Source of the DNA: Micromonospora coerulea
Lineage (GTDB): Bacteria; Actinomycetota; Actinomycetes; Mycobacteriales; Micromonosporaceae
Assembly (NCBI RefSeq): GCF_016598485.1
Contig: NZ_JAEMUW010000022.1
Coordinates: 1 to 64,000, forward strand
Direction: 5' to 3'
Length of the DNA stretch: 64,000 bases
Below, in pieces: positions 1,994-17,676 of this stretch. The notes beneath the pieces are model-generated. The model was not told the DNA's origin. It saw nothing but the letters and a program-made list of their open reading frames with translations, and searched no databases. Position 1 is the stretch's first letter, and each line of letters begins with the position of its first letter. The position numbers and the translations under genes are program-made.

Positions 1994-2009
1994 CCTTAGC
2001 GGCCGTTCA
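1994..2009. promoter_or_regulatory. candidate operator, acyl-CoA regulon site 1
   Basis: CCTTAGCGGCCGTTCA is a 16-bp near-palindrome ending 37 bp before the GTG of the hydroxyacyl-CoA dehydrogenase gene. It matches the icmA site at 17607-17622 at 14 of 16 positions and resembles sites upstream of ccr and mce/atoB. A weak -10-like CATAAC lies just upstream, so a bound protein would sit around the transcription start. Shape and length are typical of TetR-family operators. The regulator is unidentified. Confidence 0.55.
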
Positions 2010-2046
2010 TGTCGGCAACGGCGGAGTCAACCAGGGGAGGCCGGTC

Positions 2047-3837
2047 GTGGCGCGCGAGTTCACCAGTGTGGGTGTGGTGGGTCTGGGCACCATGGGTGCC
2101 GGCATCGTCGAGGTCTTCGCCCGCAACGGCATCGACGTGGTGGCGGTGGAGATCTCCGAGGCCGCCCTGGAGCGCGGCCGGGCCAACCTCACCGGCTCCA
2201 CCGATCGCGCGGTCGCCAAGGGCAAGCTGGCCGCGGCCGACCGGGACGCCCTGCTGTCCCGGGTGCACTTCCAGGTCGGGCTGGACGCACTGCACGCGGT
2301 GGACCTGGTCATCGAGGCGGTGCCCGAGCACCTCGACCTCAAGCAGCGGATCTTCGCCGAGCTGGACCGGGTCTGCAAGCCCGAGGCCATTCTGGCCACC
2401 AACACCTCCTCGCTGAGCGTCACCGAGATCTCGGTCGCCACCACCCGGCCCAACCAGGTCATCGGCATCCACTTCTTCAACCCCGCGCCGGTGATGAAGC
2501 TGGTCGAGGTGGTCCGCACCGTGGTCACCTCCGCCGAGGTGGTGGCCGACGTGGAGGCGCTCTGCGAGCGGCTGGGCAAGGTCGACGTGACCATCAGCGA
2601 CCGGGCCGGCTTCATCGCCAACGCGCTGCTCTTCGGCTACCTCAACCACGCCGTCAGCATGTTCGAGGGCCGGTACGCCACCCGCGAGGACATCGACGCC
2701 GCGATGAAGCTCGGCTGCGGCCTGCCGATGGGCCCGCTCGCCCTGATGGACCTGATCGGCCTGGACACCGCGTACGAGATCCTGGACACCATGTACCGGC
2801 GGGGTGGCCGGGACCGCCGGCACGCGCCGGTGCCGCTGATCAAGCAGATGGTCACCGCCGGGCTGCTCGGCCGGAAGTCCGGCCGCGGCTTCTACACCTA
2901 CGAGCGGCCGGGCTCCCCGGTGGTCGTACCGGACGACCAGACGCCCGTGGCGGCGCAGGCCGCGCTCGCCGACGGCGCGCGCGCCATCGCGAAGGTCGGC
3001 GTGGTCGGCTCCGGGACGATGGCCACCGGGATCATCGAAGTCTTCGCCAAGGCCGGGTACGAGGTCGTCTCGGTGACCCGGGGCGCGGAGAAGTCCGCGA
3101 AGGTCTTCGAGGCGGTCAAGACCTCGCTGAACAAGGGCGTGGTCCGAGGCAAGCTCAGCGAGGCCGATCGGGACGCCGCGCTGGGCCGGATCAACTGGTC
3201 GGCGGTGCTGGAACACCTGGCCGACGTCGACCTGGTGGTCGAGGCCGTGGTCGAGGAGTTGAGCGTCAAGAAGGCCCTCTTCGCCAGCCTGGACGAGATC
3301 TGCAAGCCGGGCGTCTTGCTCGCCACCACCACCTCGTCGCTGCCGGTGATCGACGTCGCGATGGCCACCCAGCGACCCGCCGACGTGGTCGGGCTGCACT
3401 TCTTCAACCCGGCGCCGGTCATGCCGCTGGTCGAGGTGGTGCAGACCATCCGGACCTCGGGCGAGACCACCGCCACCGCCCGGGCGGTCTGCGCCACGTT
3501 GGGCAAGACCGGCGTGGTGTGCGGCGACCGGTCCGGCTTCATCGTCAACGCGCTGCTCTTCCCGTACCTGAACGACGCGGTGAAGATGCTGGAGGCCAGC
3601 TACTCCACCGCCGACGACATCGACTACGCGATGAAGCTGGGCTGCGGCTACCCGATGGGCCCGTTCGAGCTGCTGGACGTGGTCGGGCTGGACGTGTCGC
3701 TGGCCATCCAGCGGGAGCTCTACCTGGAGCTGCGCGAGCCGGGCTTCGCCCCCGCGCCGCTGCTGGAGCACCTGGTCACCGCCGGTTACCTGGGCCGCAA
3801 GAGCGGCCGCGGCTTCCGCGACCACACCAACCGCTGA
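2047..3837 (+). CDS. tandem-duplicated 3-hydroxyacyl-CoA dehydrogenase (3-hydroxybutyryl-CoA dehydrogenase type)
   Basis: This 596-residue protein holds two complete 3-hydroxyacyl-CoA dehydrogenase units, about 1-290 and 315-596, against about 285 residues for a normal single unit. Each has a Rossmann glycine motif (GLGTMGAG, then GSGTMATG), the HFFNPAPVM segment with the catalytic His, and a C-terminal domain ending in GRKSGRGF. The reaction is reversible NAD(P)-dependent conversion of 3-hydroxyacyl-CoA and 3-oxoacyl-CoA; with atoB and ccr nearby it probably serves acetoacetyl-CoA reduction or butyryl-CoA metabolism. The GTG start follows a strong AGGGGAGG site. The acidic residue after beta-2 in the first half (VAVEIS) is replaced in the second half (VSVTRG), which could change cofactor preference. 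Confidence 0.9.
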   Translation: MAREFTSVGVVGLGTMGAGIVEVFARNGIDVVAVEISEAALERGRANLTGSTDRAVAKGKLAAADRDALLSRVHFQVGLDALHAVDLVIEAVPEHLDLKQRIFAELDRVCKPEAILATNTSSLSVTEISVATTRPNQVIGIHFFNPAPVMKLVEVVRTVVTSAEVVADVEALCERLGKVDVTISDRAGFIANALLFGYLNHAVSMFEGRYATREDIDAAMKLGCGLPMGPLALMDLIGLDTAYEILDTMYRRGGRDRRHAPVPLIKQMVTAGLLGRKSGRGFYTYERPGSPVVVPDDQTPVAAQAALADGARAIAKVGVVGSGTMATGIIEVFAKAGYEVVSVTRGAEKSAKVFEAVKTSLNKGVVRGKLSEADRDAALGRINWSAVLEHLADVDLVVEAVVEELSVKKALFASLDEICKPGVLLATTTSSLPVIDVAMATQRPADVVGLHFFNPAPVMPLVEVVQTIRTSGETTATARAVCATLGKTGVVCGDRSGFIVNALLFPYLNDAVKMLEASYSTADDIDYAMKLGCGYPMGPFELLDVVGLDVSLAIQRELYLELREPGFAPAPLLEHLVTAGYLGRKSGRGFRDHTNR

Positions 3838-3869
3838 TCGGCGTCAACACCGGACGCCGGTGACGGCGT

Positions 3870-3898
3870 CGGGGCCGGCCCGTCCCCGGCCGGTCCCG
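3870..3898 (+). terminator. hairpin after the hydroxyacyl-CoA dehydrogenase gene
   Basis: An 11-bp stem with one G-U pair (3870-3880 with 3888-3898) encloses a 7-base loop, 33 bp after the stop codon. There is no T-run, as is common in high-GC actinobacteria. It may separate this gene from the following small gene. Confidence 0.45.
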
Positions 3899-3914
3899 GC
3901 GGCGGACCGTACGC

Positions 3915-4250
3915 TTGGTGACCGTGAGCCCCCGTCGCAACCGACCCCGCCGGGACGAGACCGTCCACCTGGACTCCGACCGGGCCCGGCAGGGCGTACC
4001 CACCGTGCAGCAGTGGCGCGACGGCGACTGGCAGGTACGCGCAATCAGCGGCGGGGCCTCGACCAAGACGTACCGCTGTCCGGGCTGCGACCAGGAGATC
4101 CGCCCGGGTGTGGCGCACGTGGTGGCCTGGCCGGCGGACGACCGGGGTGATCTCACCGACCGCCGGCACTGGCACAGCGGCTGCTGGCGGGCCCGGGACC
4201 GGCGCGGCCCGGTGATCCAGCGCGGCCGGAGCGCCCCCCGGCACGGCTGA
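3915..4250 (+). CDS. small conserved hypothetical protein with putative zinc-binding cysteines
   Basis: This 111-residue basic protein is of a type widespread in actinobacteria and often labelled ATP/GTP-binding without real support. A CPGC pair near residue 57 and a later HWHSGC segment near residue 87 could form one Zn site. Charged Arg-rich tails flank this core, which fits nucleic-acid or protein binding. Several consecutive starts are possible (TTG 3915, GTG 3918, GTG 3924). There is no signal peptide. The function is unknown. Confidence 0.6.
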   Translation: MVTVSPRRNRPRRDETVHLDSDRARQGVPTVQQWRDGDWQVRAISGGASTKTYRCPGCDQEIRPGVAHVVAWPADDRGDLTDRRHWHSGCWRARDRRGPVIQRGRSAPRHG

Positions 4251-4316
4251 GCGATCTGGATCACCCTGTTTCCGCCCCGGCGGGCGACGCAGGCGGCGGC
4301 GCGCCAGACTGGGACG

Positions 4317-5126
4317 GTGAGCACACCAATCCGCGCGTCGTCGATCCTGCCCGGTCGCCGGGAGGACATCGAGCTGCACACCGCCGACGGGCTGCGCCTG
4401 GTCGGTGAGCTGGCCCGGCCGCTGGACCGGGAGCCGGTGGGCACCCTGGTCTGCCTGCACCCGCTGCCCACCCACGGCGGGATGATGGACAGCCACGTGT
4501 TCCGCAAGGCGGCCTGGCGGCTGCCCGCGCTGGCCGACCTGGCGGTGCTCCGGTTCAACACCCGGGGCACCAGCAGCGTCCGGGGCACCAGCGAGGGAGC
4601 CTTCGACAACGCGGTCGGCGAGCGCTTCGACGTCGCGGCCGCCATCGAGTACGCCGAGTTCGCCGAGCTGCCGAACATCTGGCTGGTCGGCTGGTCGTTC
4701 GGCACCGATCTGATCCTGAAGTACGGGTGCGACCCGGCGGTGGCCGGGGCGATCCTGCTCTCCCCGCCGCTGCGCTACTCCACCGCCGACGACCTGACCC
4801 CGTGGGCCGAGAGCGGCAGGCCGCTGACCGCCCTGGTCCCCGAGTTCGACGACTACCTGCGCCCGGCGGAGGCCCGGGAGCGGTTCGCGGCGGTACCGCA
4901 GGCCGAGGTGGTCGGGGTGCCCGGCGCCAAGCACCTCTGGGTCGGTGACGCCGAGACCGTGCTCGATGAGATCGTCCGGCGGGTCAACCCGGCGACGCCG
5001 CTGCCGCTGCCGACCACCTGGGACGGCCCGGTGGAGACCGGCGACGTCAGCGCGTACGCCGACCGGACGGTGGCCTCGTTCGCCGACACCCCGGTCCCCG
5101 GGCCGCAACAGCGCCGGGCCGGCTGA
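4317..5126 (+). CDS. alpha/beta hydrolase (dienelactone hydrolase-like)
   Basis: This 269-residue alpha/beta hydrolase has an HPLPTHGG segment (48-55), an NTRG motif (81-84), the nucleophile elbow GWSFGT with Ser127, and a late GAKH motif for the catalytic His. It belongs to the cytosolic group of small hydrolases related to YfhR and dienelactone hydrolase, for which substrates are rarely known. The GTG start at 4317 gives the normal N-terminus. It lies after the small zinc-ribbon-like gene and converges on the AI-2E family gene. Confidence 0.8.
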   Translation: MSTPIRASSILPGRREDIELHTADGLRLVGELARPLDREPVGTLVCLHPLPTHGGMMDSHVFRKAAWRLPALADLAVLRFNTRGTSSVRGTSEGAFDNAVGERFDVAAAIEYAEFAELPNIWLVGWSFGTDLILKYGCDPAVAGAILLSPPLRYSTADDLTPWAESGRPLTALVPEFDDYLRPAEARERFAAVPQAEVVGVPGAKHLWVGDAETVLDEIVRRVNPATPLPLPTTWDGPVETGDVSAYADRTVASFADTPVPGPQQRRAG

Positions 5127-5131
5127 CGGGG

Positions 5132-5151
5132 GCCGCCGGTCCCACGGCGGC
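5132..5151. terminator. short GC hairpin after the hydrolase gene
   Basis: A 7-bp stem (GCCGCCG at 5132-5138, CGGCGGC at 5145-5151) with a 6-base loop starts 5 bases after the hydrolase stop. The rest of the 200-bp convergent gap shows nothing I recognise. It is a weak terminator candidate. Confidence 0.3.
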
Positions 5152-5325
5152 TACGGCGGCTACGGCGAACGCCCGGCCGGGCCCGGTTGTCCCCGCGAGC
5201 GAGATGACGGTGAGGCACAAATATGCCTGACAGTCATCTTGCTGCCGGCAGTGGTCGCGCCCGGCCTGACCGAGGCGGCACGCCGGGCGGCGGATTTTGC
5301 TCCGGGCCGGAGGTCCGACCGGGGA

Positions 5326-6714
5326 TCAGCGGGACTCCTGCCGGGGGAGGACCACTTCCCGGAGGATCAGCTGGAGGGCGGCCACCATCGGGATCGCGAT
5401 CAGCGCGCCGACGACGCCCAGCAGCGCGACCCCGAGCAGGGCACCCAGCAGGGCGGCCACCTCGTTGACCGCGACCGCCCGGCGCATGATCTTGGGATAG
5501 ATCAGGTAGTTCTCCACCTGCTGGTAGATCAGGAAGAAGACCAGGCAGGCGATGCCCACCGGCAGGTCGGTGGCGAGGCCGACCAGGGTCACCACCACCG
5601 CGCCCAGGGTGGCCCCGATCTGCGGGATCAGGTCGGTTACCGCGACTACCACCGCCAGCGTGAACGGGTACGGCAGCCCGACCACCAGCGCGAAGACGAA
5701 AGTGCTCGCCCCGGCCAGCACCGCGATGCTGATCGCACCGACCATGTACGCGCCGACCCGGGTCAGGATCTCGTCGCCGATCAGCCGCACTCGCTCCCGC
5801 CGGGTGCGCGGCACCAGCGCGTACCCGAGGGCGCGCAGCTTGTCGAAGTAGGCCAGGAAGTAGATCGTCAGCACCAGCACGGTCAGCGCCCGGAAGATGG
5901 TGCCGAAGATCAGCTGGGCACCGCCCAGCACGCCGCCGAGGGCGCGGCCGATGGTGTCCGCGCTGGCGGCCGACTCGACCCGTGCCATGACGTCGTACCG
6001 CTCGATCAGGTCGTTCACCGTGGCATTGCCGCGCAGTTCGTCGACGTAGCTCGGCAACTGCTCGATGAACTGCCCGGACTGGGTCACCACCGGGGGCACC
6101 AGCGCCAGCAGTCCACCGATGATCAGCAGCACCACGGTCAGCGTCACCACCGCCACGGCCAGCCCGGGCGACAGCCCCCAGCCGCGCAGCCGGACCACCG
6201 CCGGGTGGAGGCCGACGGCGAGGAAGAGCGCGATGACCACCAGGACGAGGATGCCGGCCGAGTTGCGTACGCCGAGGAAGACCGCGTACGCCAGCAGCAC
6301 GCCGAGCGCGCCGGTGAAGCCGATCAGGAAGCTGCTGCGCCGCAACGGCCGCCCGGGGGTGCCGAAGCGCCCACTCGGTCCGCCCACCTCGAACTCGGTG
6401 GGATCGGCGGCCGCCGCCTCGCCGACCGTGGTGCCGCCGGTGGACGGTGGTGTCCGCGGCCCGATCGCTCCGGCGGCGCCCGCGCCGCCCCCCTCACCGG
6501 CGGCGCCCGCGCCGCTCCCGTCACCGGCGGCGCCCGCGCCGCCCCCCTCACCGGCGGCGCCCGCGCCGCTCCCGTCACCGGCGGCCGTGGGCCGCGACCC
6601 CCGCGGGTCGGGGGCGGGATCGGTGGTCGCGGCCAGGTCGTCCTCGGGCCGCAGCGCGGCGAACGGATCGTCGTCGTCCGGTCGGGCGCTGCCCGACGGC
6701 TCGTCCTGCGACAC
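5326..6714 (-). CDS. AI-2E family transporter with disordered N-terminal tail
   Basis: The C-terminal 330 residues form a typical AI-2E family membrane protein (about eight hydrophobic helices, including one near VLLAYAVFLGV and a long pair near the C-terminus). Members export small molecules or act as Na+/H+ antiporters; the cargo here is unknown. The first 120 residues are acidic and low-complexity, with four nine-residue Gly/Ala units (see repeat 6472-6579). I choose the GTG at 6714 because a GGGGG Shine-Dalgarno lies 4 bases upstream; the GTG at 6783 has none. It is convergent with the preceding hydrolase. Confidence 0.85.
   Translation of the reverse strand: MSQDEPSGSARPDDDDPFAALRPEDDLAATTDPAPDPRGSRPTAAGDGSGAGAAGEGGGAGAAGDGSGAGAAGEGGGAGAAGAIGPRTPPSTGGTTVGEAAAADPTEFEVGGPSGRFGTPGRPLRRSSFLIGFTGALGVLLAYAVFLGVRNSAGILVLVVIALFLAVGLHPAVVRLRGWGLSPGLAVAVVTLTVVLLIIGGLLALVPPVVTQSGQFIEQLPSYVDELRGNATVNDLIERYDVMARVESAASADTIGRALGGVLGGAQLIFGTIFRALTVLVLTIYFLAYFDKLRALGYALVPRTRRERVRLIGDEILTRVGAYMVGAISIAVLAGASTFVFALVVGLPYPFTLAVVVAVTDLIPQIGATLGAVVVTLVGLATDLPVGIACLVFFLIYQQVENYLIYPKIMRRAVAVNEVAALLGALLGVALLGVVGALIAIPMVAALQLILREVVLPRQESR
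6472..6579. repeat. four tandem 27-bp repeats inside the AI-2E gene
   Basis: Four head-to-tail 27-bp units (6472-6498, 6499-6525, 6526-6552, 6553-6579) alternate between two versions that differ at two positions. They encode alternating GDGSGAGAA and GEGGGAGAA nonapeptides in the predicted disordered cytoplasmic tail. The exact alternation suggests recent duplication of a 54-bp pair, and copy number may vary between strains. Confidence 0.85.
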
Positions 6715-6976
6715 CGGACCCCCGATCTGCCTCCGCACGGTCGGAGGAGCCTCGCCGGCCGGAATCGCGGCCGGGTCGGGCACTGCTTCGGTGGCCGGTA
6801 TCCGGCCCGCCCGCAGGCCCTGCCCGGCAGGTTAGCGGCCGGCGGGCCTGCCGGCCATCCCGCTCGGCGCGCCGGTGTGGCACCCTGCCGGCTGGCACGG
6901 CCGCCCCGCGTCGGCGACCTGGGACGCTGGCCGACACCTGTGGCCGAGAGACCGTGCCGGGGCGCCGGGGGACCGG

Positions 6977-9082
6977 TCAGTCGGACTCGACGCTGACGGT
7001 GCTCGGCTTGGCGCTGCGCTCGTCAATGGTGGGCTTCGACGGCCGCTTGCCGTTCTCGCCGGTGCTGGTGATCTTCGTCGGGGTGGCGCCCCGGCCCCCC
7101 TCGCCCGGCACGGCGGCCACCGTCCGCTCGCCCTCCACCCCGGCGCTGGCGGCGTTGCCGTCCACCGTGGTCACCGGCTCGCCGACCGGACGGGCCCTCG
7201 AATCGCCGGCGTCTCCCGCCGCACCGGCGACCGGTTCCTTCGCGGGCTCTTTGGCGCCGCTGGCCGGACCCTTGGCCGCGCCGGCTGGCGCGCTGCCCTT
7301 AGCCGCGCCAGCTGGCGCGCTGCCCTTGGCCGTGACCGGCTCCCTGCTGTGGCCGGACTCACTGCCGTTGACCGGTGCCGTCCCCTTGGCCGGTGCGGCG
7401 GGCCCGCCCCCGTTCCCGGCGAGCGCGCCCGGGGAGACGGGCACGGCCGAGAGGCCGATGGCCGGCTTGCCCTTGGTCGCCGGGAGCCGGAGCTCGGCGA
7501 GCTTCCGCTCCAGGTCGTCGGACTCCTGCCGGGACTTCCACGTCTCCTGCCGCAGGTCGGCCAGCTCCTGCTGGGCCTGTGCGATCTCCAGCATCACCTG
7601 GGCGAGCTGTTGCCGGCCGGTGGCCACCTCCTGCTGGGTGGCGGCGAGGTGCTGCTGGGTGGTGGCCAGGTGCTGCTGGGTCGTGGCCGCGTACTCCTCG
7701 AACTGGCGCCGGGAGGCGGCGACGTGCTCGTCGGCCTTGCGGCGCTTCTCGGCGGCGTCGGCCTCAACCCGGCGCAGCAGCTCGGCGGCCTCGTCCTCGG
7801 CCCGGCGGCGCATGGTGAGCGCGTCCTGCTCGGCGGCCTGGCGGACCCCGGCGGCGCCCTGCTCGATCTCGTCACGCCGGGCCGTGTACGCCTGCTCCAG
7901 CTCGGCCTGCCGGGCCTTGTGCCGCGTCTCCAGCTCGGTGTGCCGGGCGGTGTGCTGCCGTTCCAGCTCGTCGCGGCGCTTGGCGTACTCCTGCTCGGCG
8001 GCGGCGTGGCGCTGGGCCAGCTCCTTGTCGGCCGCCTCCCGTCGGGAGTTGACCTCCTTCTCCACGCCGGCCCGCCAGGCGCCCAGCTCCTGCTGTGTCT
8101 GGGCGCGGGCGTGCCGGACGTACGCCTCGGTCTCGCTGCGCATCCGCTTGACGTACGCCTCGACCTCGGCCCGGTTGCGCTTGCCGGCCTCCGCGGCCTC
8201 GGTGGTCAGCCGGTTGGCCTCCTGCCGGGCCCGGCCGCGGGTCCCCTTCGCGGCCTCCTCGGCGTCGTCGACGATCTTCTTCGCCTCCTGGAGGGCCTTG
8301 GCGTGGGTGGCCCGGCCCGCCTCGGCTGCGGACTCGGTGAGGCGCTTGGCCTCCTGCTGGGCCTTGGCGTGCACCTCCTTGGCCGCCTCGCGGAGCTGGG
8401 TGGCCTCCTGCTGGGCCTTGGCCAGTGCCTCCTTGGCCGTCTCCCGCAGCCGGGTGGCCTCCTGCTGAGCCCGGGTGTGGATCTCCTTGGCGGTGTCCCG
8501 GAGCTGGGTGGCCTCCTGCTGCGCCTTGGCCAGCGCGTCCTGGGCCGTCCTGCGCAGCTTCTCCGACTCGTCCCTGGCGGCCTTCAGGTTGGCGTCGGCC
8601 TCGGCCTTGCGGGCGGCGGTGTGCCGCTCCTCCTCGGCCCGCCGGGCGGCGAGGGCGATCTCGAAGTCCCTGAGGGCCTGCGCGGCCTGCTCGCGGGCCT
8701 CGGTGATGATGTGCTCGGCGGCCGCCCGCCGCGCCTCCATTTCCTCGTTGGCGGAGGCGAGGATCTCGTCCGCCTGCTCCTCGGCCATCAGGAGGATCTG
8801 CTCGACCCGGGGACCGAGGTGCCGGAATGAGGCCCGGTCCACCACGCCGACCTGCTTGCGCACCTGGGCGAGGTCGCGCTGCAGCACCTCGACCTGGCCG
8901 GCCAGCTTGTGGATCTGGGTGTACGCCTGTTCCCGCTCGGTGGCCAGGGTGGCGATCTCGTGCTCCGCACGAGCGACGTACCGGTCGACCTGTCGTTTCT
9001 CGTACCCCCGCAGAGCGGACTCGAAGCTGGGCTCCGTGGTCACGTCCCCGCCGAGAGCGAACAGTTCCTCGCCGTGCGACAT
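6977..9082 (-). CDS. DivIVA-type coiled-coil protein (Scy/FilP-like polar growth protein)
   Basis: This 701-residue protein has a short DivIVA-like N-terminal motif (SFESALRGYEKRQVDRYV, residues 18-35), then a roughly 450-residue Ala/Glu/Gln/Arg-rich coiled coil, then a Pro/Ala/Gly-rich disordered tail of about 170 residues. Streptomyces Scy and FilP share this design and assemble with DivIVA at hyphal tips. The coil includes an 18-residue repeat starting AQQEAT (DNA 8342-8530). The ATG at 9082 is chosen because upstream codons lack coiled-coil character and the DivIVA motif then sits at the N-terminus. It lies 167 bp downstream of a related gene in the same orientation. Confidence 0.8.
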   Translation of the reverse strand: MSHGEELFALGGDVTTEPSFESALRGYEKRQVDRYVARAEHEIATLATEREQAYTQIHKLAGQVEVLQRDLAQVRKQVGVVDRASFRHLGPRVEQILLMAEEQADEILASANEEMEARRAAAEHIITEAREQAAQALRDFEIALAARRAEEERHTAARKAEADANLKAARDESEKLRRTAQDALAKAQQEATQLRDTAKEIHTRAQQEATRLRETAKEALAKAQQEATQLREAAKEVHAKAQQEAKRLTESAAEAGRATHAKALQEAKKIVDDAEEAAKGTRGRARQEANRLTTEAAEAGKRNRAEVEAYVKRMRSETEAYVRHARAQTQQELGAWRAGVEKEVNSRREAADKELAQRHAAAEQEYAKRRDELERQHTARHTELETRHKARQAELEQAYTARRDEIEQGAAGVRQAAEQDALTMRRRAEDEAAELLRRVEADAAEKRRKADEHVAASRRQFEEYAATTQQHLATTQQHLAATQQEVATGRQQLAQVMLEIAQAQQELADLRQETWKSRQESDDLERKLAELRLPATKGKPAIGLSAVPVSPGALAGNGGGPAAPAKGTAPVNGSESGHSREPVTAKGSAPAGAAKGSAPAGAAKGPASGAKEPAKEPVAGAAGDAGDSRARPVGEPVTTVDGNAASAGVEGERTVAAVPGEGGRGATPTKITSTGENGKRPSKPTIDERSAKPSTVSVESD
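8342..8530. repeat. 54-bp tandem coding repeats in the coiled-coil gene
   Basis: A degenerate unit of about 54 bp, recognisable by GGCCTCCTGCTGGGCCTTGG-like cores near 8350, 8403, 8457 and 8511, encodes 18-residue units of the AQQEATQLRDTAKE type. Eighteen residues equals one heptad plus one hendecad, a mix known for Scy-like proteins. Confidence 0.7.
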
Positions 9083-9223: not shown

Positions 9224-9249
9224 GGATCATGCCCCGATGCGGGTGGTGC

Positions 9250-10661: not shown

Positions 10662-10693
10662 AAAGGGCCGCGGGCCGAAGCCCGCGACCCTTT
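10662..10693 (-). terminator. intrinsic terminator of ccr
   Basis: Read on the minus strand, a 14-bp stem with one mismatch and a TTCG loop is followed directly by a run of five T, 88 bp downstream of the ccr stop. This is one of the few classical Rho-independent terminators in the window. The TTCG tetraloop adds stability. It separates ccr from the coiled-coil genes, which are also on the minus strand. Confidence 0.8.
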
Positions 10694-10780
10694 GTCAGGT
10701 GGCCCGCGAATGGTGTGCCGGCCGGTGGAAAGGCAAAGCCCCGCTCGCCGCAATGGTCATCCGGCCGGCACCCGTACGGC

Positions 10781-12136
10781 TCAGTGGCCGCGGAACCGGT
10801 TGATCGCAGTTTCGTGCCGGGCGCGCAGCTCGGTGTCGCGGACGCCGAGGCCGTCCGTCGGCGCGAGGCAGCGCACCCCGACCTTGCCCTGGTGGGCGTT
10901 GCGGTGCACCTCGTACGCGGCCTGGCCGGTCTGCTCCAGCGGGTAGCTCCTCGACACCGTCGGGTGGATCTGGCCGAGCGCCACCAGTCGGTTGGCCTGC
11001 CAGGCCTCGTGGTAGTTGGCGAAGTGGCTGCCGACGATCCGCTTGAGGTGCATCCAGAGGTAGCGGTTGTCGTACTGGTGCTGGTAGCCGCTGGTGGAGG
11101 CGCAGGTGACGATGGTGCCGCCGCGCTTGGCCACGTAGACGCTGGCGCCGAAGGTCTCCCGGCCGGGGTGTTCGAAGACGATGTCCGGGTCCTCGCCGCC
11201 GGTCAGCTCGCGGATCCGCTCGCCGAAGCGCCGCCACTCGTCCGGGTCCTGGGTGTCCTCGTCCTTCCAGAAGCGGAAGCCCTCGGCGGCGCGGTCGATG
11301 ACCAGTTCGGCGCCCATCTTCCGGCACAGCTCGGCCTTCTCCGGCGAGGAGACCACGCAGACCGGGATCGCGCCGCCGTTGAGCGCCATCTGCGTGGCGT
11401 AGCCGCCCAGGCCGCCGGAGGCGCCCCAGATCAGCACCACGTCGCCCTGCTTCATGTTGGCCCCGTGATGGGAGACCAGCTGCCGGTACGCGGTGGAGTT
11501 GACCAGCCCGGGGCTGGCCGCCTCCTCCCAGCTCAGGTGGCGCGGCTTGGGCATCAGCTGGTTGGCCTTGACCACGGCGAGCTCGGCGAGGCCACCGAAG
11601 TTGGTCTCGAAGCCCCAGATCCGCTGCTGCGGGTCGAGCATGGTGTCGTCGTGCCCGGCCGCGTCCTCCAGCTCGACCGACAGGCAGTGCGCGACCACCT
11701 CGTCGCCGGCCTTCCACTTGGTAACCCCGGGCCCGGTCCGCAGCACCACGCCGGCGGCGTCCGAACCGACCACGTGGTACGGCAGGTCGTGGCGGCGGGT
11801 CAGCTCGGAGAGCCGGCCGTAGCGCTGGAGGAACTTGAAGGTCGGCAGCGGCTCGAAGATGCTGGTCCAGACCGTGTTGTAGTTGATGGCGCTGGCCATC
11901 ACCGCGACCAGGGCCTCACCCGGGCCGAGCTCGGGGGTGGGCACCTCCTGCAGGTGCAGCGCCTTGCGCGGGTCCTTGTCCCGGGTGGCCATCCCGTCGA
12001 ACATCCGGGTGTCCTCCGCGCGGACCACCACACCCCGGTAGGTCTCCGGTACGGGCAGTCCGGCGAGGCCGCCGAGCTCCCGCTCGGGCTGCGCGGAGCC
12101 CTCCGCCGCCATGATCGCTTCGAGGATGTCCTGCAC
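10781..12136 (-). CDS. ccr: crotonyl-CoA carboxylase/reductase
   Basis: This cytosolic protein closely resembles Streptomyces Ccr along its whole length (451 residues). It catalyses NADPH-dependent reductive carboxylation of crotonyl-CoA to ethylmalonyl-CoA, feeding the ethylmalonyl-CoA pathway and polyketide extender units. Visible family features include the SAINYNTVWTSIFEP region, the nucleotide-binding GASGGLGGYA stretch, the FEHPGRETFGAS stretch and the C-terminal INRFRGH. The GTG at 12136 is chosen because a perfect GGAGGTGA lies just upstream and the N-terminus QDILEAI aligns with Streptomyces; ATGs at 12187 and 12232 are alternatives. The candidate regulon operator lies at 12270-12285. 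Confidence 0.93.
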   Translation of the reverse strand: MQDILEAIMAAEGSAQPERELGGLAGLPVPETYRGVVVRAEDTRMFDGMATRDKDPRKALHLQEVPTPELGPGEALVAVMASAINYNTVWTSIFEPLPTFKFLQRYGRLSELTRRHDLPYHVVGSDAAGVVLRTGPGVTKWKAGDEVVAHCLSVELEDAAGHDDTMLDPQQRIWGFETNFGGLAELAVVKANQLMPKPRHLSWEEAASPGLVNSTAYRQLVSHHGANMKQGDVVLIWGASGGLGGYATQMALNGGAIPVCVVSSPEKAELCRKMGAELVIDRAAEGFRFWKDEDTQDPDEWRRFGERIRELTGGEDPDIVFEHPGRETFGASVYVAKRGGTIVTCASTSGYQHQYDNRYLWMHLKRIVGSHFANYHEAWQANRLVALGQIHPTVSRSYPLEQTGQAAYEVHRNAHQGKVGVRCLAPTDGLGVRDTELRARHETAINRFRGH

Positions 12137-12269
12137 GGTGACCTCCCGTTCGTCCGCACCCAGGCCGGGGGGCAGGGGTGCTGCCATCGTCGGCGCCGGT
12201 GCGACCGACCGCCATGTCGGCAATCGACACATCCGGCACCGGCCGCGCTCCTGTGGGGCCGGACGTTAC

Positions 12270-12285
12270 TGAACGGTAGCTAGGG
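12270..12285. promoter_or_regulatory. candidate operator, acyl-CoA regulon site 2 (ccr)
   Basis: On the minus strand this reads CCCTAGCTACCGTTCA, matching the icmA site at 13 of 16 positions. It is upstream of every possible ccr start and downstream of the mce gene. Of the four sites it departs most from the palindrome, so it may be the weakest binding site. Confidence 0.45.
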
Positions 12286-12366
12286 CGGGAAGTCTTCTGT
12301 GAAAAACTGCATCGGCCGATGCGTGGAGGTGTCCGGCGCGGCGGCGAACCGCGCAGCGCCGCGCTC

Positions 12367-12393
12367 GGTGGGGCCCCGGCGCGGGGCCCCACC
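12367..12393 (-). terminator. hairpin after mce
   Basis: A perfect 11-bp stem (GGTGGGGCCCC with GGGGCCCCACC) and a 5-base loop lie immediately after the mce stop on the minus strand. There is no T-run. It would insulate ccr from mce and fits ccr having its own promoter. Confidence 0.6.
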
Positions 12394-12399
12394 CGCGGC

Positions 12400-12873
12400 T
12401 CAGTGGCCGGCGGCCGGCTCCACCAGCTCGACCAGGACGCCGCCGGCGTCCTTGGGGTGGACGAAGTTGATCCGGGAGTCGGCGGTGCCCCGCTTCGGCT
12501 TGTCGTAGAGCAGCCGGACGCCCCGCTCACGCAGGGCAGCGCAGGCCGCGTCGATGTCCGCGACCGTGTACGCGACCTGCTGCACTCCGGGGCCGTTGCG
12601 GTCCAGGAACTTGGCGATGGTCGACTCCGGAGACAGCGGGGCGAGCAGTTGCACGCAGCCGCCCTCGGTGGTCGGGCCGACCGCCAGCATCGCCTCGCGG
12701 ACGCCCTGCTCGGCGTTGGTCTCGGTGTGTACGCAGCGCATCCCGAAGGTGCGCTGGTAGAAGTCGATCGCGGCGTCCAGGTCGGCCACGGCGATCCCGA
12801 CGTGGTCGATGCGGAGCAGCCCGATGTCTGTGACGTAGTCCGCAGCGGGCTCGACGGGGGAGTTCTCAGCCAT
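12400..12873 (-). CDS. mce: methylmalonyl-CoA/ethylmalonyl-CoA epimerase
   Basis: This 157-residue vicinal-oxygen-chelate protein interconverts (2R)- and (2S)-methylmalonyl-CoA, and in this pathway probably also ethylmalonyl-CoA. The family pattern is clear: IDHVGIAVADLD near the N-terminus supplies a metal-ligand His, QQVAYTVADID begins the second half, and the KDAGGVLVELVEP ending carries the conserved Glu. The ATG at 12873 gives the family N-terminus; an upstream ATG at 12894 would add only seven residues. It diverges from atoB over a 62-bp gap that holds regulon site 3, so the two are probably co-regulated. Confidence 0.93.
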   Translation of the reverse strand: MAENSPVEPAADYVTDIGLLRIDHVGIAVADLDAAIDFYQRTFGMRCVHTETNAEQGVREAMLAVGPTTEGGCVQLLAPLSPESTIAKFLDRNGPGVQQVAYTVADIDAACAALRERGVRLLYDKPKRGTADSRINFVHPKDAGGVLVELVEPAAGH

Positions 12874-12887
12874 GGCGCTAGTCTGAC

Positions 12888-12903
12888 CGAACAATCGTTA
12901 AGG
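12888..12903. promoter_or_regulatory. candidate operator, acyl-CoA regulon site 3 (mce/atoB)
   Basis: CGAACAATCGTTAAGG on the plus strand is CCTTAACGATTGTTCG on the minus strand, matching the icmA site at 13 of 16 positions and nearly palindromic. It occupies the middle of the 62-bp divergent region and could control both genes at once. Confidence 0.55.
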
Positions 12904-12935
12904 CGTACAGGTCGGCACCCCCCTCGGAGGCAGGC

Positions 12936-14135
12936 ATGGCTTCGGTGATCGTCAGCGGCGCGCGGACCCCCATGGGGCGCCTGCTGGGCAACCTCAAGGA
13001 CCTCCCGGCGACGAAGCTCGGCGGGGTGGCCATCAAGGCCGCACTGGAACGGGCCGGCGTCGCCCCCGACCAGGTGCAGTACGTGATCATGGGGCAGGTG
13101 CTCCAGGCCGGCGCCGGCCAGATCCCGGCCCGCCAGGCGGCCGTCGAGGCGGGCATCCCGATGTCCGTGCCGGCGCTGACCATCAACAAGGTCTGCCTCT
13201 CCGGCCTCGACGCGATCGCCCTGGCCGACCAGCTCATCCGGGCCGGCGAGTTCGACATCGTGGTGGCCGGCGGCATGGAGTCGATGACCAACGCCCCGCA
13301 CCTGCTGCTCGGCCAGCGCGGCGGCTACAAGTACGGCGACGTGGTGGTCAAGGACCACATGGCGCTGGACGGGCTCACCGACGCCTGGGACTGCTGCTCG
13401 ATGGGCGAGTCGACCGAGCGGCTCGGCACGAAGCACGGCATCAGCCGCGAGGAGCAGGACGCGTTCGCCGCGGCCAGCCACCAGCGGGCCGCCGCCGCCC
13501 AGAAGAACGGCCACTTCGCCGAGGAGATCACCCCCGTGGTCATCCCGCAGCGCAAGGGCGACCCGCTGGTGATCAGCGAGGACGAGGGAATCCGTCCGGA
13601 CACCACCGCCGAGTCGCTGGGCAAGCTGCGCCCGGCGTTCACGAAGGACGGCACCATCACCGCCGGCAGCTCCTCGCCGATCTCCGACGGGGCCGCCGCC
13701 GTGGTCGTGATGAGCAAGGCCAAGGCCAAGGAGCTCGGGCTCACCTGGCTGGCCGAAATCGGCGCGCACGGCAACGTGGCGGGCCCGGACAACTCCCTGC
13801 ACTCGCAGCCCTCGAACGCCATCCTGCACGCCCTGAAGAAGGGTGGCCTGAGCGTCGCCGATCTCGACCTGATCGAGATCAACGAGGCGTTCGCCCAGGT
13901 CGGCATCCAGTCCGTGCGGGACCTCGGGATCAGCACCGACAAGGTCAACGTCAACGGCGGCGCGATTGCGCTGGGCCACCCGATCGGCATGTCCGGTGCC
14001 CGGCTGGTGCTCACCCTGGCGCTGGAGCTCAAGCGGCGCGGCGGCGGCACCGGCGCGGCCGCGCTCTGCGGCGGCGGTGGGCAGGGCGACGCGCTGATCA
14101 TCCACGTCCCGGACGGCGCCGAGACCGAGCAGTGA
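12936..14135 (+). CDS. atoB: acetyl-CoA C-acetyltransferase (thiolase)
   Basis: This 399-residue type II thiolase condenses two acetyl-CoA to acetoacetyl-CoA or cleaves it in reverse. The acylated Cys87 sits in INKVCLSG, His348 in [11 protein letters not shown], and the second active-site Cys378 in [10 protein letters not shown], all in family order and spacing. Length is typical for biosynthetic thiolases. The ATG follows GGAGG. It is followed by meaB after 47 bp, probably as one transcript, and is divergent from mce. With the hydroxyacyl-CoA dehydrogenase and ccr it would supply the first steps of the ethylmalonyl-CoA pathway. Confidence 0.93.
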
Positions 14136-14182
14136 GCGCGCGGCGCCAGCCGGTTCTGCGAGCCCCGCAGTAAGGAAGCACA

Positions 14183-15187
14183 GTGAGCGACGTCGTCGAG
14201 AACGCCCCGGCCGCGGCCACCGGATCGGTGCGCCGCAGCCGGGACGTACCGATGCTGGTGGAGCGGGCCCGCGCGGGTGACCCCCGCGCGGTGGCCCGCC
14301 TGATCACCCTGGTCGAGTCCGGCGACGAGGTGCTCCCGCAGGTGGCGGCGGCCCTCGCGCCGTACGCCGGACAGGCCCAGGTGGTGGGTCTGACCGGGTC
14401 GCCCGGGGTGGGCAAGTCCACCACCACCAATGAGCTGGTCCGGGCGCTGCGGGCGCGCGGCCACCGGGTCGGCGTGCTGGCCATCGACCCGTCCAGCCCG
14501 TTCACCGGCGGGGCGATCCTCGGCGACCGGGTCCGGATGCAGGACCACGCCACCGACCCGGGCGTCTACATCCGCTCGATGTCCAGCCGGGGCCACCTCG
14601 GCGGGCTGTCCGCGGCGACCCCGCAGGCGGTCCGGGTGCTGGAGGGCGCCGGCTGCGACGTGGTGCTGGTGGAGACCGTCGGCGTCGGGCAGGCCGAGGT
14701 GGAGGTCGCCTCGCTGGCCGACACCACGCTGGTGCTGCTCGCCCCGGGCATGGGCGACGCGATCCAGGCGGTGAAAGCCGGCATCCTGGAGATCGCGGAC
14801 GTCTTCGTGGTCAACAAGGCCGACCGTGACGGCGCCGACGCCACCGTTCGCGACATCCAGGGCATGATCGCCCTGGGTGAGCGCGGGCCGGGGGAGTGGC
14901 GCCCGCAGGTGGTCCGGTCGATCGCCGCCCGGGGCGAGGGGATCGACGACATCGCCGCCGCGATCGACAAGCACCGCGGCTGGCTGGAGCAGCACGACGA
15001 GCTGCGCCGCCGCCGGGAGGCGCGGGCCGCCGCCGAGGTCGAGGCCATCGCGCTCGGCGCCCTCCGCGCCCGCATCGGCTCGCTGCGCGACGGTACGGAG
15101 CTGGCCACGCTCGCCGCCAAGGTGGCCGAGGGCGCCCTGGACCCCTACGCCGCCGCCGACGAGCTCCTCGCCCAGCTCGGCGGCTGA
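14183..15187 (+). CDS. meaB: methylmalonyl-CoA mutase-associated GTPase MeaB
   Basis: This 334-residue G3E-family GTPase protects and reloads adenosylcobalamin in acyl-CoA mutases. It has Walker A GSPGVGKST (72-80), the ETVGVGQ switch segment (164-170) and the NKAD specificity motif (211-214), and a C-terminal helical dimerisation arm. MeaB/ArgK proteins are dedicated chaperones of B12 mutases, so its likely client is the icmA product encoded 2.5 kb downstream or a methylmalonyl- or ethylmalonyl-CoA mutase elsewhere. The ATG-type context is replaced by a GTG start after AAGGAAG. It is probably co-transcribed with atoB. Confidence 0.93.
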   Translation: MSDVVENAPAAATGSVRRSRDVPMLVERARAGDPRAVARLITLVESGDEVLPQVAAALAPYAGQAQVVGLTGSPGVGKSTTTNELVRALRARGHRVGVLAIDPSSPFTGGAILGDRVRMQDHATDPGVYIRSMSSRGHLGGLSAATPQAVRVLEGAGCDVVLVETVGVGQAEVEVASLADTTLVLLAPGMGDAIQAVKAGILEIADVFVVNKADRDGADATVRDIQGMIALGERGPGEWRPQVVRSIAARGEGIDDIAAAIDKHRGWLEQHDELRRRREARAAAEVEAIALGALRARIGSLRDGTELATLAAKVAEGALDPYAAADELLAQLGG

Positions 15188-15208
15188 CCCGATCTCCCCT
15201 TCGGTCCG

Positions 15209-15252
15209 GGGATTGTCGTCGTCGGCTGATCTCCACCAGCGACGACAATCCC
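15209..15252. terminator. 13-bp inverted repeat after meaB
   Basis: GGGATTGTCGTCG (15209-15221) and its perfect complement (15240-15252) flank an 18-base loop, 21 bp after the meaB stop. Termination is the simplest reading. The arms are less GC-rich than nearby hairpins and the loop is long, so a dispersed intergenic repeat or protein-binding site is also possible. Confidence 0.5.
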
Positions 15253-15327
15253 TCGATCGGCGCGGCGTACCCTCCACTGGGCGCGCCGCGGGGTGCGGGG
15301 TGCGGGATGGCGGGGCTGGGAGAGGGC

Positions 15328-15741
15328 ATGGCTGACGAGGCGACTCAGGAGCTGTCGGTGACGCCGGACGCGGTGGCGGGCGGCACGACGCACGTCTCCG
15401 ACGAGGTGGTGGAGAAGATCGCGGTGGCCGCCGCCAAGTCCGTGCCCGGGGTGGCGGAGCTGGGCGGGGACGTGGCCCGCTTCTTCAACTCGGTGCTCGA
15501 CAAGGTCGGGCTGGACCAGGTGGGTGACGCCCGGCGCGGCTGCTCGGCGCATGTCACGAACGGCGCGGCGGTGGTCAACCTGGTGCTGGTGATCTCCGGC
15601 GGCCGGCCGGTCCCGGAGGTGACCGACGCGGTCCGCTCCGCGGTGACCTCGGCGGTCGAGGCGTACGGGCTGCGGGTCGACGAGATCAACATCCGGGTCG
15701 ACGACGTGGCCCTGGGGGGTACGGCGGTCCCGTCGGCCTGA
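15328..15741 (+). CDS. Asp23/Gls24 family envelope stress protein
   Basis: This 137-residue protein matches the Asp23 (DUF322) family: HVSDEVVEKIAVAAAKSVPGV near the start, a middle segment with VNLVLVISGG, and the C-terminal half ending VDEINIRVDDV. Family members are small cytosolic or membrane-tethered proteins linked to cell-envelope stress and alkaline shock; the molecular role is unclear. The ATG at 15328 has a GGGAGAGGG site just upstream; the ATG at 15307 would add seven residues. It is convergent with the TetR gene and has no clear functional tie to meaB. Confidence 0.85.
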   Translation: MADEATQELSVTPDAVAGGTTHVSDEVVEKIAVAAAKSVPGVAELGGDVARFFNSVLDKVGLDQVGDARRGCSAHVTNGAAVVNLVLVISGGRPVPEVTDAVRSAVTSAVEAYGLRVDEINIRVDDVALGGTAVPSA

Positions 15742-15795
15742 GGGGCCGTCCGCACCGGCAGGCCCGGTCGGGTACCCGCGCGGCGCCGGGTCTGC

Positions 15796-16416
15796 TCAGT
15801 CCAGCGCGGCCCGGACCTGCGGCGGCACCTGGAGCAGGTCCAGGCTGTTGCGCCACAGCGTCTCGAGCTGGGCTGGGTCGTTGAGCAGTTTCGCGAGCAG
15901 CGCGCGCCCCTCGATCTGGGCGACCATCGACCGCGCGACCTCGTGGGCGTCGACCGCCGGGCCGGCCTGGCCCTGATCCTTCGCCTCGACCACCACCCGC
16001 TCGATGAGGTCGATCTGGGCCTCGAAGATCTCCTGTAGCCGGCCACGGATCTCCTCGGCCTGGTTGCTCAGCTCCAGCGCGAGGTTGCCGAAGAGGCAGC
16101 CGACGACCAGGCCGCCCTTGCGCTGCCCGGCACGCTGCACCTCCTCGGTGGCCTCGAACAGGTCCCGCAGGCGCCGCAGCGGGTCGCGGTCGCTGCTGAG
16201 CAGCTCGACCCACCGCCGCCGCTGGCTCGCCCAGTGGTCGTCGATCACGGTGAGCGCGAGAGCCTGCTTGGACTCGAAGAAGTAGTAGAAGCTGCCCTTC
16301 GGCACGCCCGCCGTGGTGCAGATCTCCGCCACGCCCAGCGCGGAATAGCCGCGCTGCTCCAGCAGCATCGCGGCCGCGCCGAGGATCTTGTTCCGCGCGT
16401 CACTTGTCCGTCCCAT
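15796..16416 (-). CDS. TetR/AcrR family transcriptional regulator
   Basis: This 206-residue protein has a TetR N-terminal DNA-binding domain: residues 10-55 include ARNKILGAAAMLLEQRGYSALGV and a recognition helix in TTAGVPKGSFYYFF. The C-terminal domain (about 80-206) would bind an unknown ligand. The ATG at 16416 starts the usual helix; upstream in-frame codons read through the operator region and are not credible. It diverges from the SDR gene over 106 bp containing two related palindromes (16432-16464), so it probably represses the SDR/tautomerase operon and itself. Confidence 0.88.
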   Translation of the reverse strand: MGRTSDARNKILGAAAMLLEQRGYSALGVAEICTTAGVPKGSFYYFFESKQALALTVIDDHWASQRRRWVELLSSDRDPLRRLRDLFEATEEVQRAGQRKGGLVVGCLFGNLALELSNQAEEIRGRLQEIFEAQIDLIERVVVEAKDQGQAGPAVDAHEVARSMVAQIEGRALLAKLLNDPAQLETLWRNSLDLLQVPPQVRAALD

Positions 16417-16431
16417 GGCTTTGACGATACA

Positions 16432-16464
16432 CGACCGGTCGGCTAGCTTTTTGTCGACCAGTCG
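16432..16464. promoter_or_regulatory. candidate TetR operators between tetR and the SDR gene
   Basis: A perfect 10-bp palindrome CGACCGGTCG (16432-16441) recurs 23 bp later as CGACCAGTCG (16455-16464) with one change. Two spaced palindromes in a divergent tetR promoter are the normal arrangement for a TetR-type repressor that controls itself and its neighbour. The motif differs from the acyl-CoA regulon sites, so the two systems appear separate. Confidence 0.6.
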
Positions 16465-16522
16465 TCTACTGGCCATCCCGGTCGGCGCCAACAAGGGCTC
16501 CGGCCAGTCAGGAAGAGGAATC

Positions 16523-17236
16523 ATGAGCAGTCAGGGACAGAAGGTCGCAGTGATCACCGGTGCGTCTCAGGGCATCGGCGCCGGCCTCGTCGACGCGTAC
16601 CGCAAGCTCGGGTACGGGGTCGTGGCGACCTCGCGCTCGATCGGCGCCGCCAACGATCCGGAGATCGTCACCGTCCAGGGCGACATCGCCGACGCCGACA
16701 CCGCGGAGCGGGTGATCAGCGCTGCCCTTGAGCGCTTCGGCCGCGTCGACACGGTGGTCAACAACGCGGGCGTCTTCCTCGCCAAGCCGTTCACCGACTA
16801 CACCGACGAGGACTACGCCCTGGCCACCGGGGTCAACCTCAGCGGCTTCTTCCAGCTCACCCGGCGCGCCCTGCCGCACCTGCTGGCCACCGGCGCAGGA
16901 CACATCGTCACCATCACGACCGCCCTCGTGGACCAGCCCAACTCCAACGTCCCGTCCGTGCTCGCGTCGCTGACCAAGGGCGGCCTCAACTCCGCAACCA
17001 AGTCCCTGGCCATCGAGTACGCGAGCCGGGGCGTCCGGGTCAACGCCGTCGCGCCGGGCGTCATCAAGACCCCGATGCACCCGGTCGAGGCCCACGAGAC
17101 CCTCGCCGGCCTGCACCCGGTCGGTCGGATGGGTGAGACCAGCGACATCGTCGACGCCGTCGTCTACCTCGAGTCCGCGCCCTTCGTCACCGGCGAGATC
17201 CTGCACGTCGACGGCGGCCAGAACGCCGGTCACTGA
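16523..17236 (+). CDS. SDR family protein lacking the canonical catalytic tyrosine
   Basis: This 237-residue short-chain dehydrogenase has the cofactor motif TGASQGIG (12-19), NNAG near residue 80, and the C-terminal GEILHVDGG. The expected Ser-Tyr-Lys triad is altered: TITTALV replaces the usual Ser segment, and in the segment ending LASLTKGGL the residue four before the Lys is Ala, not Tyr. It may be catalytically altered, or act on an unusual substrate. The ATG follows GGAAGAGGAA. It diverges from the TetR gene and is followed after 32 bp by a tautomerase gene, so both probably form a TetR-controlled operon. Confidence 0.82.
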   Translation: MSSQGQKVAVITGASQGIGAGLVDAYRKLGYGVVATSRSIGAANDPEIVTVQGDIADADTAERVISAALERFGRVDTVVNNAGVFLAKPFTDYTDEDYALATGVNLSGFFQLTRRALPHLLATGAGHIVTITTALVDQPNSNVPSVLASLTKGGLNSATKSLAIEYASRGVRVNAVAPGVIKTPMHPVEAHETLAGLHPVGRMGETSDIVDAVVYLESAPFVTGEILHVDGGQNAGH

Positions 17237-17268
17237 CCCCTCCGCAAGCCGTAGCAAGGAGCACGACG

Positions 17269-17508
17269 ATGCCGATCGTCAACATCCAGATCACCCGCGA
17301 GGGCAGCACGCCCGGTGCCGCCGCGGCGACCGCCGAGGAGAAGGCCGCGCTCATCAAGGGGGTGAGCCAGCTGCTGCTCGACGTCCTGAAGAAGCCGCTG
17401 AGCTCGACCTTCGTCGTGATCGACGAGGTCGACACCGAGAACTGGGGGCGGGGTGGCCTCCCGGTGGACCAGTTCCGGCAGCAGCAGGGCTCGGGCTCGC
17501 CGGAGTAA
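17269..17508 (+). CDS. tautomerase (4-oxalocrotonate tautomerase family)
   Basis: This 79-residue protein starts MPIVNIQI, so Pro becomes the N-terminal catalytic base once Met is removed, as in 4-oxalocrotonate tautomerases. The middle VIDEVDTENWGRGG matches the family loop. It is longer than the usual 60-70 residues by a C-terminal Gln/Ser-rich tail. Members isomerise enol-keto acids in aromatic degradation; the natural substrate here is unknown. It follows the SDR gene at 32 bp with a good AAGGAG site, supporting co-expression. Confidence 0.85.
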   Translation: MPIVNIQITREGSTPGAAAATAEEKAALIKGVSQLLLDVLKKPLSSTFVVIDEVDTENWGRGGLPVDQFRQQQGSGSPE

Positions 17509-17569
17509 CGCCCGGCACCTGGAGCGGCGCGGGGCCGGACAGCGCGCCGATCCGGGCAGTCGAAACGTG

Positions 17570-17601
17570 CGTACCGGCCGGTCAGGTTACCGGCCGGTAC
17601 G
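17570..17601. terminator. 13-bp inverted repeat between the tautomerase gene and icmA
   Basis: CGTACCGGCCGGT (17570-17582) and its perfect complement (17589-17601) flank a 6-base loop. It lies 62 bp after the tautomerase stop and ends 6 bp before the regulon operator of icmA. It could terminate the SDR operon or bind a regulator, given its closeness to the icmA promoter. Confidence 0.5.
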
Positions 17602-17606
17602 AACTT

Positions 17607-17622
17607 CCTTAGCGATCGTTCA
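17607..17622. promoter_or_regulatory. candidate operator, acyl-CoA regulon site 4 (icmA)
   Basis: CCTTAGCGATCGTTCA, the reference copy of the motif, lies 55 bp before the icmA ATG. Its central 14 bases form a near-palindrome around CGATCG. It overlaps the expected -35 region for a -10-like TACACT at 17634-17639, which fits repression. Confidence 0.6.
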
Positions 17623-17676
17623 GGCACCCGTTCTACACTCGGTCTTCAGTCGAGGACTCGAGGAGGAGCTCCGCGG

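Follow-up and report, generated by a model that had tools for sequence, protein, structure and literature searches.

The window analysed here, 64,000 nt of Micromonospora coerulea (contig NZ_JAEMUW010000022.1, positions 1 to 64,000), carries a short near-palindromic element upstream of hbd, ccr, icmA and the divergent genes mce and atoB, which raises the question whether these copies are one operator and which regulator binds them. A sequence-only reading had proposed one shared operator and an acyl-CoA regulon, with a regulator either elsewhere or unrecognised; the comparative evidence supports the shared operator, the regulon and a regulator encoded elsewhere. Judged from comparison of sequences, the sites are most likely operators of an AccR/BkaR-type TetR repressor that is encoded outside the window, at G000:C71:37784-38404 (C71 TetR), and would control branched-chain, acyl-CoA, icm and ethylmalonyl-CoA entry genes.

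When the window was searched with the icmA 16-mer CCTTAGCGATCGTTCA at up to three mismatches, exactly four matches were found. Both the positions and the identities to the icmA copy (14, 13 and 13 of 16) agreed with those given by the sequence-only reading. Dinucleotide shuffles of the window gave a mean of 0.23 matches, and four matches were reached in 0 of 100 shuffles. The near-palindrome was present, but it is better defined as an 18-bp imperfect palindrome, CCTTARCG-AT-CGTTCAGG, than as the 16-bp element described before. The matches, the 18-bp copies and the adjoining promoter-like boxes are as follows:

1994-2009, + strand: 16-mer match, two mismatches to CCTTAGCGATCGTTCA; 18-bp copy CCTTAGCGGCCGTTCATG at 1994-2011, upstream of the tandem hbd, overlapping the end of a mostly conserved CATAAC (-10-like, 1989-1994)
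12270-12285, - strand: 16-mer match, three mismatches; 18-bp copy CCCTAGCTACCGTTCAGT at 12268-12285, upstream of ccr
12888-12903, - strand: 16-mer match, three mismatches; 18-bp copy CCTTAACGATTGTTCGGT at 12886-12903, a single site for both of the divergent genes mce and atoB between which it lies
12879-12884: conserved TAGTCT, -10-like for atoB, adjoining the mce/atoB copy
17607-17622, + strand: 16-mer match without mismatch, the reference copy (icmA); 18-bp copy CCTTAGCGATCGTTCAGG at 17607-17624, upstream of icmA, covering the expected -35 region
17634-17639: mostly conserved TACACT, putative -10 of the icmA promoter

To avoid circularity, an independent matrix was drawn from 16 sites at other loci, none of them at the four window promoters. 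Its sources were the hbd2, acyl-CoA dehydrogenase (ACAD), accD1 and accA2 sites of the same genome and acc-cluster sites from five other genera. With this matrix the four window copies took ranks 1-4 among 63,983 positions, scoring 26.2, 25.2, 15.0 and 13.4, and the next position scored 7.7. The best score per shuffle in 30 Markov-1 shuffles ranged from 5.0 to 14.9, and the icmA and mce/atoB copies are individually beyond chance.

Conservation was evaluated in the best 80 of 597 ccr loci, comprising 29 loci from Micromonosporaceae (L058-L086) and 51 from other actinobacteria. The denominators are loci with the gene start and upstream region covered, and the mce and atoB counts share one site. 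At a matrix score of at least 10, a site was found in 14/15 hbd, 24/29 ccr, 25/27 mce, 26/27 atoB and 22/22 icmA promoters of Micromonosporaceae, against 0/16, 1/51, 0/32, 0/33 and 0/4 in the others, respectively; the reversed-sequence control gave 1 match. At a score of at least 15 the counts in Micromonosporaceae were still 25/27 for mce, 26/27 for atoB and 22/22 for icmA. No intergenic core within one mismatch was found in the 51 outgroup ccr loci (Streptomyces, Pseudonocardiales and others). The check whether orthologous promoters keep the motif was thus passed within Micromonosporaceae; among the ccr promoters of Streptomyces, Pseudonocardiales and others, 1/51 matched. In whole genomes the exact pattern gave 87 matches in 44 of 61 family genomes, the present one included (reversed pattern, 10), and 2 matches in 2 of 96 genomes outside the family (reversed, 18). 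Among ten named genomes, exact matches occurred in 6/6 Micromonosporaceae and 0/4 others. These counts suggest that the motif is largely specific to Micromonosporaceae and that the four window sites are conserved, probable binding sites. The sole matching ccr promoter among the 51 outside the family was that of Frankia sp. AgB1.9 (L113), with a score of 16.7. In Streptomyces albus, valine was reported to raise icm and acc transcripts and to lower ccr (PMC8176718), and this response, as far as the excerpt describes it, is consistent with ccr lying outside this regulon there.

Sites elsewhere in the genome were located by pattern search with the reversed pattern as control. The 16-mer at up to three mismatches gave 27 matches compared with 10 for the reversed pattern. 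Twelve distinct places lay within 0-1 mismatch of CYTARCGRYCGTTCRG, and nine of them precede acyl-CoA or branched-chain amino-acid genes: icmA, accD1, hbd2, ilvE, hbd1, ccr, mce/atoB, a peptidase-acyl-CoA dehydrogenase operon and an acyl-CoA carboxylase alpha gene. The clustering that had been predicted for genome matches therefore holds at 0-1 mismatch (9/12), but beyond one mismatch the control was not beaten in the pattern search. The site at C65:17468, counted as a target, is followed directly by the peptidase gene, the end of which overlaps the acyl-CoA dehydrogenase gene; in Salinispora and Catellatospora the equivalent site directly precedes the acyl-CoA dehydrogenase. Sites left out of matrix building scored 20.6 (ilvE), 23.2 (acyl-CoA dehydrogenase operon) and 24.5 (pyruvate phosphate dikinase). 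The three places without an acyl-CoA target scored 13.6 (C43:183660), 11.5 (C44:109506, inside a gene) and 12.8 (C104:266759, ahead of a gene that by eye looks ribosomal-S1-like).

Upstream of pyruvate phosphate dikinase, a citE-like lyase, another acyl-CoA dehydrogenase and icmB there are further sites, to which relatives lend some support. The sequence GGTTACCGTTCGTTCAGG at L284:1443 (C49:226.6k) is followed after about 45 bp by an icmB-like gene for a small mutase subunit, and Hamadaea (L242) has an almost identical copy. Matches at up to two mismatches and symmetric matches at one mismatch (33 compared with 23 reversed per strand, mostly chance) were used as candidate lists only. Among the matches at up to three mismatches, L004-L006, L008-L011, L014, L017-L021 and L023-L027 were dropped, being without an acyl-CoA or branched-chain target; L015, a weak citE-like candidate, was retained.

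The C71 TetR gene heads the genes accA1-hmgL-accD1-acyl-CoA dehydrogenase. This gene order, next to accA1/accD1, hmgL and acyl-CoA dehydrogenase, is a feature of the AccR/BkaR type; it was found at L043, and a similar cluster is present in relatives. An orthologue was detected in 17/17 other Micromonosporaceae searched (77-94% identity). In other families the best match showed 43-55% identity in 19/22 genomes and less in three (G008, G010, G030); AccR of S. avermitilis lay outside this set. A site precedes accD1 in 7/7 genomes read (the present one, Salinispora, M. pattaloongensis, Catellatospora, Catelliglobosispora, Planosporangium and Hamadaea), the stretches having been picked by pattern matches, one or more from each of six Micromonosporaceae with such matches. 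A site in the orthologue's own promoter was present in 6/17 other Micromonosporaceae, namely Catellatospora, Planosporangium, Catelliglobosispora, Dactylosporangium, Hamadaea and M. pattaloongensis. A TetR screen within the present genome did not single out the regulator; the other genera did. In that screen there were at least 53 PF00440 (TetR) matches (150 of 194 first-look candidates scored), and the best matrix score in 48 TetR neighbourhoods was 13.9, in L152. No site was found in the promoters of C71:37859 (the proposed regulator), C71:34422 and C93:168401.

The window motif and the AccR/BkaR boxes have the 14-bp core TTARYGNNCRYTAA in common. In a flank-blind search this core was found within two mismatches in 13/13 orthologue promoters from other families, these 13 being the ones, out of 19 orthologues, for which a locus was returned. 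The outer pair was G..C in 13/13 of these TetR promoters. In contrast, it was C..G in 22/22 Micromonosporaceae icmA promoters, where the published outer G..C was absent; in the six Micromonosporaceae TetR promoters with a site it was C..G in four, T..G in one and G..G in one. The best match to the core TTAAYGNNCRTTAA was within two mismatches in 22/22 icmA promoters, and the accD1 site of the present genome, GCCTAACGATCGTTCAGG, differs from it at two positions. The atoB sites are looser, with the core within two mismatches in 3/27. The residue after the helix-3 tyrosine was His in 18/18 Micromonosporaceae (the present one included) and Arg in 13/13 others, giving a recognition helix YHHF in Micromonosporaceae versus YRHF in the other families. 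Since this amounts to one evolutionary event, the joint change of helix and operator flank is read as a correlation only.

Several observations weigh against the assignment to the C71 TetR. Its score on NF050111 (SACE_7040 family, the nearest NCBIfam family) was 227.1 bits, below the cut-off of 250. In the present genome no site was found upstream of its own gene (promoter best score -3.3), and the site was absent in 11/12 Micromonospora/Salinispora orthologues (L251-L262), which suggests that autoregulation was lost there while other genera keep the site. The ccr and hbd copies, taken singly, lie near the top of the chance range, so both rest on conservation across relatives, and there they are weak, with 9/29 and 2/15 Micromonosporaceae reaching a score of 15. 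The exact match was absent in 17/61 family genomes. Within one mismatch, the ten named genomes gave 63 matches versus 76 reversed, the six Micromonosporaceae among them 54 versus 47. At up to two mismatches the present genome gave 85 pattern matches versus 190 reversed, without discrimination beyond one mismatch, and therefore only strong sites are usable. The weak palindrome ACTGAACGGTAACTTAGA, seen just upstream of a B12-fused mutase gene (meaA/ecm type) on contig C98, scored 5.8; a meaA site with a score of at least 10 was present in 3/15 Micromonosporaceae, eight show the same weak form, and a site was found in 0/4 outgroup genomes.

The patchy occurrence of the site at the C71 TetR promoter would fit if a different regulator, of the TetR or another family, bound the motif and the AccR-like TetR gene, which carries the site in some genera only, were merely one of its targets. 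The candidate screen covered the TetR family alone, and the only TetR promoter of the present genome with partial matches is another one, C49:440768 (13.8 and 10.4). Tandem CCTGACCGATCGGTCA palindromes (L010/L011, C49:440955 and 440974) lie upstream of this C49 TetR, beside an MMPL-like transporter gene recognized by eye, and they are probably the C49 TetR's own operator. An orthologue of the C49 TetR was present in 11/17 Micromonosporaceae, but none (E <= 1e-20) was found in the other six, M. pattaloongensis, Dactylosporangium, Planosporangium, Catellatospora, Hamadaea and Catelliglobosispora. Since the motif is present in all six, the C49 TetR was rejected as the regulator. The TetR encoded in the window (15796-16416) was rejected as well, since it is the C71 TetR cluster that the motif accompanies; none of the window's top matrix matches fell at its promoter. 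Moreover, in other families the operator next to the C71 TetR orthologues has the core of the window motif, and the change in the recognition helix is accompanied by one in the operator flank. A different regulator is thus considered unlikely.

The motif might also be part of the core promoter recognized by an alternative sigma factor. At the first eight sites 17-65 bp separate its centre from the predicted start downstream (141 bp at ccr with the inner start), and it overlaps or adjoins -35/-10-like boxes. However, it is palindromic and occurs in either orientation relative to the gene, and in the alignments its place with respect to the -10-like box varies: at icmA it covers the expected -35 region and TACACT follows it, at hbd it comes after CATAAC and at atoB after TAGTCT. 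At these putative promoters such placement is as expected of a repressor, and a sigma element is very improbable. Chance similarity, or copying of promoter DNA between loci of one cluster, could be suspected because a stretch of 5.4 kb holds three of the four sites. This is scarcely credible, since the four loci differ both in the DNA flanking the 18 bp and in the families of their genes, seven further contigs have sites at genes of this kind, and the copies are retained at their promoters from genus to genus, besides taking ranks 1-4 with the independent matrix. The sites, their conservation, the target set, the sites at the relatives' regulator promoters and the common operator core are all read from sequence, and together they favor the C71 TetR as the probable repressor.

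For this repressor we infer binding, repression and a ligand in Micromonosporaceae as follows. At each target a C71 TetR dimer would bind CCTTARCGNNCGTTMAGG, which overlaps or adjoins the -35/-10/start region, and would block RNA polymerase, and a short-chain acyl-CoA from branched-chain amino-acid or acetate metabolism would release it. On the branched-chain side the predicted targets are leucine degradation (accD1-ACAD), the branched-chain amino-acid aminotransferase, acyl-CoA dehydrogenases and the acyl-CoA carboxylase alpha subunit. Isobutyryl-CoA mutase (icmA, probably icmB) would be a further target. Control would extend to atoB, hbd, ccr and mce, which make up the entry half of the ethylmalonyl-CoA pathway, and tentatively to meaA and the citE-like lyase; in this it would differ from AccR and BkaR as described in the excerpts of their published accounts.

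The gene families at the four loci are the acyl-CoA families that had been claimed. The genes of the window are:

2047-3837, + strand: hbd, 3-hydroxybutyryl-CoA dehydrogenase, 596 aa
10781-12232, - strand: ccr, crotonyl-CoA carboxylase/reductase (TIGR01751, 608 bits, cut-off 378.55); start codon uncertain (12232 or 12136)
12400-12873, - strand: mce, methylmalonyl-CoA epimerase family (TIGR03081, above cut-off)
12936-14135, + strand: atoB, acetyl-CoA acetyltransferase
14183-15187, + strand: MeaB-type mutase-associated GTPase, downstream of atoB and presumably co-transcribed with it
15796-16416, - strand: the local TetR (TetR_C_13)
17677-19365, + strand: icmA, methylmalonyl-/isobutyryl-CoA-mutase-type large subunit

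The hbd protein is a tandem duplication, with two 3HCDH_N + 3HCDH modules in one chain. No B12-binding domain was found in the icmA product; the B12-fused mutase on contig C98 (L045:328-2334) has 668 aa. Just upstream of the icmA operator, at 17586-17599, GTTACC followed by CGGTA forms a second conserved block in most of the aligned Micromonosporaceae icmA promoters and may be another regulator's site. By our own reading of the families, the window genes and the C98 mutase would provide ethylmalonyl-CoA-pathway and isobutyryl-CoA-mutase functions. No isocitrate lyase (PF00463) was detected in this 99.99%-complete genome. Without that enzyme, established biochemistry would lead one to expect acetyl-CoA to be assimilated through the ethylmalonyl-CoA pathway.

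In Micromonosporaceae much of the acetate-assimilation (ethylmalonyl-CoA) pathway seems to have come under the control of this repressor. A broader proposal, to which we give an even chance, is that AccR, a repressor of leucine degradation, changed its DNA specificity in Micromonosporaceae (helix Arg to His together with the flipped outer operator pair) and captured ethylmalonyl-CoA entry and isobutyryl-CoA mutase. In bacteria without the glyoxylate shunt, a branched-chain acyl-CoA sensor would so have become the master switch that governs both the assimilation of acetyl-CoA and the ethylmalonyl-/methylmalonyl-CoA building blocks of polyketides. Among the matches listed from the open-licence PMC literature, none linked this regulator family, or any other TetR, to the ethylmalonyl-CoA pathway in actinomycetes, and none described such a regulon in Micromonospora, Actinoplanes or Micromonosporaceae. 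The motif itself is a variant of a known operator; what appears to be new is that operator and recognition helix are altered and that ethylmalonyl-CoA genes have been captured. A specific, testable candidate is thereby put forward as regulator of ethylmalonyl-CoA-pathway genes. The family includes many antibiotic producers, and in it ccr, mce and icm can supply polyketide extender units. The system also offers a compact case of regulon rewiring: from one family to another a change of one helix residue goes with a change of one operator base pair, and pathway genes are gained.

TetR-type control of ccr in the ethylmalonyl-CoA pathway has a precedent in CcrR of Methylobacterium. The likeness, taken from its description alone, is limited to this type of control, as CcrR is an activator and alphaproteobacterial. 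The sequence-only reading did not know the motif from the literature; its 14-bp core is in fact the published core of the AccR/BkaR operator, as the excerpts of the two accounts give it. AccR of Streptomyces avermitilis, a TetR-family protein, has the operator GTTAA-N6-TTAAC, with accD1A1-hmgL-fadE4, echA8, echA9 and fadE2 as reported targets (PMC10933834) and methylcrotonyl-, propionyl- and acetyl-CoA as reported ligands (PMC8546615). In six Streptomyces orthologue loci the TetR gene has AccR-type boxes next to it, for example GTTAACGCTCATTAAC, and most of these loci also contain one resembling GGTTAGCGGTCGTTAACC; 5/6 of the stretches include a divergent accD1-like gene, identified by eye. 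The boxes fit the operator given in the excerpt of PMC10933834 and have the same core as the window motif. Unlike AccR, the Micromonosporaceae operator has outer C..G instead of G..C and one arm that is usually TTCA, and the helix is YHHF instead of YRHF. Ethylmalonyl-CoA genes carry sites in Micromonosporaceae, whereas no intergenic core within one mismatch was found in the 51 ccr loci of other families.

BkaR (MSMEG_4718/Rv2506) of mycobacteria, the dimer of which binds GTTA(N)T(N4)A(N)TAAC, has been shown to be an autoregulated repressor of itself, accD1 and branched-chain keto-acid genes (PMC3920632). It resembles the present system in the operator core and in its control of the acetyl-CoA acetyltransferase gene fadA4. 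It differs in that the excerpt of PMC3920632 gives 10 directly controlled M. smegmatis genes and names no ccr, hbd or mutase gene, and in that the C71 TetR has no autoregulatory site in the present genome. Mycolicibacterium PccD, with 68% 'homology' to BkaR and 45% to AccR, acts on pccA/pccB (PMC11596240). The SACE_7040-family/PccD TetRs of Saccharopolyspora are nearest in NCBIfam to the C71 TetR, yet its score stays below their cut-off, and the Saccharopolyspora PccD motif, as given in the excerpt of PMC10933834, differs from the window motif. In other families the boxes next to the orthologues share the core of the window motif but have the outer pair swapped; on this comparison the motif is therefore the Micromonosporaceae version of the AccR/BkaR operator and no new motif class.

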